Assembly (NCBI GenBank): GCA_900016675.1
Contig: LN483070.1
Location: forward strand, 1,178,001-1,242,000
DNA length: 64,000 nucleotides
Direction: 5' to 3'
Source of the DNA: Arthrobacter saudimassiliensis
GTDB taxonomy: Bacteria > Actinomycetota > Actinomycetes > Actinomycetales > Micrococcaceae
The notes under the pieces were generated by a model. That model ran no database searches. It was not told the DNA's origin and saw only the letters and a list, made by a program, of their open reading frames with translations. This document shows positions 46,773-48,556 of the stretch, in pieces; the first letter of the stretch is position 1, and every line of letters starts with the position of its first letter. The translations under genes and the position numbers were made by a program.

Positions 46773-46804
46773 TTGACTGTGGAGGGAAGTGGAGTAAAGT
46801 GGAG
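46773..46804 (+). promoter_or_regulatory. mraZ promoter overlapped by three MraZ-type boxes
   Basis: TTGACT (46773-46778), 16-bp spacer, TAAAGT (46795-46800). GTGGAG boxes at 46779-46784, 46789-46794 and 46799-46804 are spaced exactly 10 bp, one helical turn, and cover the spacer and -10. MraZ proteins bind such short direct repeats upstream of their own gene, so autorepression of the dcw cluster is likely. Confidence 0.75.
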
Positions 46805-46863: not shown

Positions 46864-47295
46864 ATGTTCCTCGGAACCCATTCGCCGCGCCTTGATGACA
46901 AGGGCAGGATCATCCTTCCGGCCAAGTTCCGGGACGAGCTGGCCGACGGGCTGGTGCTGACCCGGGGCCAGGAGCGGTGCATCTACGTCTTCAGCCGGAA
47001 AGAGTTCGAACGGATCCACGAGCAGATGAGGGAAGCCCCGCTGTCCTCACGCCAGGCCCGTGACTACATCCGAGTTTTTCTCTCCGGCGCCTCCGACGAA
47101 GTGCCGGACAAGCAAGGGCGGGTCACCATCCCGCCGGCGCTGCGCAGGTATGCCGGTCTGGACCGCGAGCTGGCCGTTATCGGCGCCGGCACGCGGGCCG
47201 AGATCTGGGATGCCGAGGCCTGGCAGGAATACCTGGACGAGAAGGAAGCCGCCTTCTCGGACACCGACGAAGACGCAATTCCCGGAGTCTTCTGA
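46864..47295 (+). CDS. mraZ: Transcriptional regulator MraZ
   Basis: A 143-residue protein with two SpoVT/AbrB-type half domains: [19 protein letters not shown] with AKFRDEL, then [18 protein letters not shown] (about residues 80-97). These form a ring oligomer that binds direct repeats. MraZ controls its own dcw operon; three boxes over its promoter support this here. It starts at the canonical ATG-TTC-CTC-GG. First gene of the division and cell-wall cluster, separated from rsmH by 262 bp containing tandem hairpins. Confidence 0.96.
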
Positions 47296-47414
47296 CCCTT
47301 TCCGCCGCCGGCGGCTCGGGCAGGGCAACGGAAACAGCAGCACCTCAGACCCAGTAACGGACAGGCGCCACGCCGGTTCTTGCATGAGATCTCCAGCCGC
47401 CCCGCGGATCAGGA

Positions 47415-47506
47415 TCCTGGCTCACCTTCCCCTGAGCCAGGCCCCGGCCGCCAGGCGCGGTTCCTGGCTCACCTTCCCCGGAGCCAGGCCCGGCCGCGAG
47501 GCGCGG
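47415..47506 (+). repeat. Tandem 46-bp repeat forming twin hairpins in the mraZ-rsmH spacer
   Basis: Copy 1 is 47415-47460, copy 2 is 47462-47506 (one base shorter, two substitutions). Each contains an 8-bp stem CCTGGCTC/GAGCCAGG (47416-47423 with 47434-47441; 47463-47470 with 47481-47488) and a 10-nt loop, ACCTTCCCCT or ACCTTCCCCG. The CCTTCC of both loops is complementary to GGAAGG in the rsmH ribosome binding site (47543-47548). There is no T-run, so these are not standard terminators. Confidence 0.7.
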
Positions 47507-47557
47507 ATGGGGATCTGATCCAAGAACCCGGTGCGGCTCCGCGGAAGGAAGCAGCAC

Positions 47558-48556
47558 ATGAGCGAAGAGCGTCCCGCCTCGGAACGCCACGTTCCGGTGC
47601 TCCGTGACCGGTGCGTCAACCTGCTCGCCCCCGCACTCGAAGCCGCCGCCGCTGCAACCGGGCGCGCCGTCGTCGTCGACGCGACCCTGGGCATGGGCGG
47701 CCACTCCGAGGCAATGCTCGAGCGGTTCCCCAACCTGCACCTCATCGGCCTGGACCGCGACACCCAGGCCCTGCGCCTGGCCGGGGAGCGGCTGGCCCCC
47801 TGGAACGACCGCATCGACCTGGTCCACGCCGTCTATGACGAGATCGCCGACGTCGTCACCGACCTCGGGTTCGACTCCATCGACGGCGTGCTGTTCGACC
47901 TCGGGGTCTCCTCCCTGCAGCTCGACGAGCGGGGCCGCGGCTTCGCCTACTCCTACGACGCCCCGCTGGACATGCGGATGGACACCTCCCGCGGAGCCAC
48001 CGCGGCCGACGTCGTCAATACCTACGACGAGGCGGAGCTCGCCTCCGTGATCCGCCGGTGGGGCGAAGAGAAGTTCGCCCGGCGGATCGCCGCGGCCATC
48101 GTCGCCGCCCGGGACGAGGAACCCTTCAGCACCACCGGCCGCCTGGTGGAGGTCATCCGGACCGCTGTCCCGGCCGCCGCCGCCCGCACCGGCGGGCACC
48201 CGGCGAAGCGTACCTTCCAGGCCCTGCGGATCGAGGTCAATGAGGAGCTGGACGTCCTCGAGCGGGCCATCCCCGCCGCACTGTCCGTCCTCGGCGTCGG
48301 CGGCCGGGCCGTGGTCATGTCCTACCACTCGCTGGAGGACAAGATCGTCAAGTCGGTCTTCGCCGCGGAATCCTCCTCCTCCGCTCCGAAGGGCTTCCCC
48401 GTGGAGCTCGAGGAGCACAAGCCGCGCTTCAGGCGCCTGACCAAGGGCACCGAAACGCCCACGGCCGAGGAAATCGCCGAGAACCCGCGCGCCGCCTCAG
48501 CCAGGCTGCGCGCCGTCGAACGCATCCGCACGAGCAGGGACGGGGCACGATCATGA
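47558..48556 (+). CDS. rsmH: 16S rRNA m4C1402 methyltransferase RsmH
   Basis: A 332-residue methyltransferase (formerly MraW). [13 protein letters not shown] opens the domain, [15 protein letters not shown] is the SAM site, [19 protein letters not shown] and [17 protein letters not shown] are family blocks, and the C-terminal [16 protein letters not shown] and [13 protein letters not shown] are intact. It methylates the N4 of C1402 in 16S rRNA in the ribosomal P site. The ATG at 47558 follows GGAAGGAA. Its stop overlaps the ftsL start (ATGA). Confidence 0.96.

Follow-up and report, generated by a model that had tools for sequence, protein, structure and literature searches.

A duplicated-tip form of the mraW RNA (RF01746) between mraZ and rsmH in Arthrobacter saudimassiliensis

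The mraW RNA family and the locus in the window

The mraW motif was presented by Weinberg et al. in 2010 as probably an RNA and probably cis-regulatory, occurring in Actinomycetales, and the entry for it in their table carries a question mark under riboswitch status (PMC2864571); a 2017 paper, where it mentions the RNA, states that its function is unknown (PMC5640933). Among openly licensed PubMed Central papers we found none on the function of the mraW RNA or on two-headed forms, of which the supplements of Weinberg et al. may describe more. A further likeness, which we take as a lead only, is to the 6C and B11 sRNAs of mycobacteria, also actinobacterial RNAs with C-rich loops. C-rich loops such as these bind G-rich sites. 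The mraW RNA differs from these free sRNAs in forming a leader at rsmH, and its loop has no preference for the rsmH ribosome binding site.

The window, a 64,000-nt stretch of contig LN483070.1 of A. saudimassiliensis, holds in the 262-nt spacer between mraZ and rsmH a pair of near-identical hairpins that is a duplicated-tip version of this catalogued family. The sequence-only reading had recognized two tandem hairpins with CCTTCC in their loops, and a hairpin model built from 80 relatives, with the window left out, indeed finds both copies; its remark that no described element lies here was wrong, the element being RF01746. The family is a known one and the two-headed form is a variant of it. 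The features of the locus are as follows.

46864..47295, forward strand: mraZ, open reading frame with Pfam MraZ (PF02381), E 6e-38
47375..47528, forward strand: whole element, mraW RNA (RF01746) with duplicated apical hairpin, from the Rfam match, folding and relatives
47375..47400, forward strand: 5' strand of the basal helix, GGUUCUUGCAUGAGAUCUCCAGCCGC, pairing without gaps with 47503-47528
47416..47441, forward strand: apical hairpin copy 1, CCTGGCTCA/CCTTCCCC/TGAGCCAGG, CUUCCCC at 47426-47432; hairpin model 39.4 bits, E 6e-7
47463..47488, forward strand: apical hairpin copy 2, CCTGGCTC/ACCTTCCCCG/GAGCCAGG, CUUCCCC at 47473-47479; hairpin model 43.8 bits, E 5e-8; forms the apical portion of the RF01746 match
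47503..47528, forward strand: 3' strand of the basal helix, GCGGAUGGGGAUCUGAUCCAAGAACC, with GGGGA at 47509-47513 complementary to UCCCC of both loops
47543..47548, forward strand: GGAAGG, Shine-Dalgarno-like sequence of rsmH, judged to lie outside the element
47558..48556, forward strand: rsmH (mraW), open reading frame from the in-frame ATG at 47558; Pfam MraW methylase (PF01795), E 2e-112

At its 3' end rsmH overlaps the next gene, which we take to be ftsL, by the ATGA at 48553, as had been proposed, and an rsmH homologue is present in 244 of 246 genomes of the phylum. We also noticed three GTGGAG sequences at 10-nt spacing upstream of mraZ (46779-46804), presumably like the MraZ operator. 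The rsmH start context, GCGGAAGGAAGCAGC at 47541-47555, has what we take to be a resemblance to the conserved loop region of SRP RNA, probably by coincidence.

The Rfam scan matches RF01746 at 47424-47535 with 35 bits (E 1e-4, or 7.8e-6 in a shorter stretch), the one significant place in this genome, and falls short of the family's gathering score of 50 bits, probably owing to the second head inserted at the duplicated tip. The gathering score is exceeded in 22 of 59 genomes, including eight congeners (G005, G006, G016, G017 and G022-G025) in which rsmH adjoins the RF01746 locus, so that the membership of the window's element rests on orthology. It shares with the family its place 5' of rsmH on the same strand, the actinobacterial host, the CUUCCCC loop (in both copies) and a long hairpin in which the basal helix continues the apical stem. 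It differs in its score and in having two apical hairpins where the family has one.

The tandem repeats detected in the window are D1 (33 nt, 94% identity, spacing 47) and D7 (18 nt, spacing 46). A basal helix of 26 nt, for which the best 24 positions were computed and the last two pairs added by eye, surrounds both hairpins in the register found in 101 aligned relatives. The element as a whole exceeds the interval first given for it, 47415 to 47560, with 47375-47400 and 47503-47528 closing around both hairpins. With the basal helix, the RNA of the whole element folds much better than shuffles (z -5.4, 0 of 200), and 47400-47570 alone folds weakly (z -1.6, 14 of 200). The predicted minimum-energy fold is a rod formed between the two copies, with the twin-hairpin form about 6 kcal/mol higher, so that the latter is not certain in A. 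saudimassiliensis. Folding during transcription would form head 1 first.

Selection on the structure and its occurrence among relatives

A selected RNA structure between mraZ and rsmH is confirmed by the relatives, in which the apical stem and the basal helix covary and the loop CUUCCCC is constant. The pairing of the apical stem persists through sequence change in 133 unique hairpins (drawn from 146 distinct cores, of which the 144 with a stem register were used). Its covariation score in the alignment of 80 is 0.410 against 0.187 (sd 0.012) in shuffles, none of 500 reaching the observed value, which upholds the earlier suggestion of a selected structure; the simple tally of pairs in which both positions vary, 8 of 8, does not stand out, as 122 of 500 shuffles reach it too. 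The differences between the two copies, from which selection had been argued, make a weak case, since none of the 28 other congeners has the duplication, each bearing one head at the rsmH locus. The hairpin statistics take loci that contain CTTCCCC, so that loop constancy is there partly by construction, and the less biased figure comes from loci chosen by rsmH and not by motif: CTTCCCC is found in the spacer of 16 of 16 class members outside genus g34.

When aligned separately for 101 of the 102 selected single-head loci (L041 was left out), the flanks of the hairpin show a single pairing register of about 24 columns with clear covariation. One example pair, occurring as GC, TA, CG and AT, is Watson-Crick in 84 cases against 36 expected. 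Departures from standard pairing are kept as well, with G.G in 70, U.G in 71 and C.A in 36 of the 101.

In the apical stem of the 133 unique hairpins G.U outnumbers A.C by 60 to 38, and by 59 to 5 without the pair -6:11, an imbalance that we attribute to selection acting on the sense RNA. Since G.U and A.C would be equivalent in a DNA dyad, the asymmetry speaks against an element acting at the DNA level, that is, a dyad operator or a promoter upstream of an internal rsmH promoter. What favors such an element is that transcription is reported to start inside or after the motif in two corynebacteria: the 5' end reported for the C. glutamicum rsmH transcript, 2,266,932, lies inside the motif (2,267,021-2,266,916) and close to its 3' end (PMC3890552), and the motif of C. 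diphtheriae is placed upstream of the mraW start site (PMC5784534). Taken together, we regard a DNA element as very improbable. The basal helix shows this asymmetry only weakly (180 vs 131). As a separate observation, the apical pair -6:11 (47420:47437 and 47467:47484 in the window) is A.C in 33 of 133 hairpins and G.U in one; A.C is rare at the other eight apical pairs, with five in all.

RF01746 is found at E <= 0.01 in 52 of 59 genomes (the window genome counted), including all 28 other congeners, and in 216 of 295 genomes of the class; at E <= 0.001 it is found in 18 of 246 genomes of the phylum and in 249 of 251 within one family. Some genomes give two matches, which, among the matches listed with both, are the two strands of one place. 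The hairpin-only model detects 105 of 118 class genomes at E <= 0.05 and is insensitive in some genera, with 8 of 37 in the genus of G298, a member of the family with 249 of 251 by RF01746. Among the matches listed for that family, none has the coordinates published for the C. glutamicum motif; the 16 relatives read from it (13 in one genus), which were picked by RF01746, all carry CTTCCCC. In genus g34, 6 of 8 rsmH loci are without CTTCCCC, and L041 has the motif but no hairpin. No mraZ lies beside rsmH in any of the eight (L040-L044, L046-L048), and RF01746 is matched only in L047; the element and mraZ seem to have been lost together in this genus, though not strictly.

The hairpin-only model is also not fully selective, reaching up to 39.5 bits elsewhere in the genomes at sites unlike the element. 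A regulon of mraW hairpins was considered and rejected, as the 13 second matches read away from rsmH lack the full RF01746 element. Among the listed second matches, 20 stretches were read, 7 with rsmH alongside and 13 without. The latter score 28-39.5 bits, some equalling true copies, and two of them from one genome (L187 and L185 of G369; 39.5 and 36.5 bits) lie above that genome's own rsmH copy. The full element is absent from all 13 (best 27.9 bits, E 0.08, in L197), and 12 of the matches lie within a same-strand open frame of 450 nt or more; these 13, L187 and L185 included, appear to be chance matches in coding DNA. For the congener G017 one further hairpin-model match is listed, outside the 20 stretches read.

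The two-headed mraW RNA recurs before rsmH in several lineages, which is new here. A collection of named genomes contains 88 stretches that match a pattern of two tandem heads, and in 63 of the 80 readable loci rsmH follows on the same strand after 51-361 nt. These 63 come from Rhodococcus, Rhodococcoides, Prescottella, Williamsia, Millisia, Plantibacter, Amnibacterium, Nocardioides, Mycolicibacterium, Citricoccus and several metagenome-assembled genomes. The 17 without rsmH nearby comprise 15 assigned to other phyla, one Streptosporangiales metagenome-assembled genome and one Rhodococcus with the match at the locus edge. A helix above shuffled controls surrounds both heads in 15 of 16 sampled loci (every fourth of the 63); in the two-headed L287 the enclosing helix is another stretch than the consensus one. 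Of the 33 distinct two-headed elements (from 65 of 66 items), 25 are predicted to fold at minimum energy with two heads and 8, including that of the window, as a rod between the copies. At the 48 positions where heads differ in these elements, standard pairs number 66 of 96 within heads vs 49 of 96 between, with the register fitted within each head, which favors the within-head figure. A different arrangement is seen in L114 (G042): next to the canonical hairpin stands a non-homologous one with a CUUCCCC of its own in the loop, which may be a second head acquired by convergence.

The loop and the ribosome binding site of rsmH

The GGAAGG at 47543-47548 before the ATG of rsmH is, as the sequence-only reading pointed out, an exact 6-nt complement of the loop. 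The proposal built on it, that rsmH is repressed by pairing of the loops with its Shine-Dalgarno sequence, fails the mraZ control, the swap control and the congener counts. Both starts were located at 138 of 141 distinct loci. There, the longest Watson-Crick match to the loop averages 4.32 at rsmH and 4.35 at mraZ in those genomes, and exchanging the rsmH sites among loci gives a mean of 4.36 (sd 0.04), 178 of 200 swaps reaching the observed mean. Matches of at least 6 occur at 16 of 138 rsmH sites vs 18 of 138 mraZ sites. If wobble pairs are allowed, mraZ exceeds rsmH (6.54 vs 5.48), which fits a stronger mraZ site.

Neither do loop and site covary in the 28 other congeners, of which 12 have the extra loop C that the match requires together with GGAAGG, 8 the C only and 8 GGAAGG only. 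A longer complement of the loop between the hairpin and position +60 of rsmH is found in 1 of 158 loci as GGGGAAG and in 15 of 158 as GGGG[AG][AG]G. Between loop and start codon lie 59 to 356 nt, depending on the locus (script-chosen starts), a spread which argues against a direct loop-to-start geometry. GGAAGG stands 3-11 nt before an ATG eight times on the two strands of the window, with 3.4 expected and 1 of 100 shuffles reaching eight. The complement in the window is thus real and ordinary, and we conclude that it reflects a chance meeting of a Shine-Dalgarno-like sequence with a C-rich loop.

It is in line with sequestration in general that, in the account given for C. glutamicum, all 13 Rfam-predicted 5'-UTRs have a ribosome binding site that can be sequestered, at least partly, in a predicted stem-loop (PMC3890552). 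By the same account the mraW 5'-UTR begins near the end of the motif, so that sequestration there would not use the loop. Repression of rsmH through pairing of the loops with its Shine-Dalgarno sequence is, on all these grounds, barely credible.

Possible roles of the element

The 3' basal strand offers another partner for the loop. Its GGGGA is present in 57 of 101 elements and is fully Watson-Crick to the loop, and fully so to its helix partner in only 4 of 101. Judged by complementarity, the loop is the better partner in 79 of 101 elements, an equal one in 13 and a worse one in 9, a preference that is new here; it is at the GGGGA positions that the U.G and C.A departures persist. An intramolecular switch could follow, in which UCCCC of the loop is in competition with the 5' basal strand for GGGGA, with an H-type pseudoknot and the rod as alternates. 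The central G is A in 14 of 101 elements and T in 2 with no change in the loop, so that there is no covariation of loop and target; a 5-bp pseudoknot is also far shorter than the rod, and no expression platform was identified. We consider a switch of this kind decidedly unlikely, and a version in which the basal pairing stays imperfect (U.G, C.A, G.G), leaving it to a bound factor or to transcriptional timing to tip the balance, would be a long shot. Were such competition true, the lineages that double the head, the window's included, would have doubled the competing strand.

Alternatively, the helix could be a processing or stability element, either cut (e.g., by RNase III) or blocking decay, that separates mraZ from rsmH mRNA, with the loop kept for some reason of its own. 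The basal helix of about 24 pairs with conserved mismatches would suit this role, as would the position of the reported C. glutamicum 5' end, late in the motif (PMC3890552). RNase III cleavage of C. glutamicum mraZ mRNA is also on record (Maeda 2016, as cited in PMC8247434), although by that citation it falls in the mraZ coding region. A cleavage substrate alone leaves the constancy of a 7-nt loop across many genera unexplained, and the element can persist where mraZ is not found beside rsmH, as in L047. We think this role rather unlikely. Mimicry of the 16S rRNA substrate of RsmH by the element was considered as a further possible role.

The explanation that we favor, with about an even chance of being right, is that the mraW RNA is a cis-acting leader of rsmH-ftsL whose loop docks a trans factor tuning translation or stability. 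The long irregular basal helix would present the constant CUUCCCC loop, on two heads in this species; the partner, more probably an RNA-binding protein than a small RNA, would tune the translation or stability of the rsmH-ftsL message by binding at the loop, and a second head would add avidity or dosage. The structure is there, and docking fits the constancy of the loop, the covariation of the stem, the place before rsmH, the variable distance and the recurrent doubling better than the cis pairing that was tested. That a factor exists, what it is and in which direction it controls are what we infer. Several points weigh against docking: no candidate factor is known or was found here, the partner being putative; the doubled heads could be tolerated duplications; and the rod is the predicted fold in 8 of 33 two-headed elements, the window's among them. 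On the Rfam alignment of the motif, the loop precedes the reported C. glutamicum 5' end, and from this and the C. diphtheriae start site at least one transcript would be without the loop. Either the loop is carried by readthrough from mraZ and not by the internal transcript, or the 5' end is a processing product.

The negative result on the ribosome binding site and the map of kept mismatches narrow the experiments that remain worthwhile, and the natural one-headed and two-headed forms provide a ready-made test of the role of the loop. Most genomes searched in the class (216 of 295) have the mraW RNA in front of the rsmH end of their division and cell-wall gene cluster, and its hosts include relatives of mycobacteria, corynebacteria and rhodococci.
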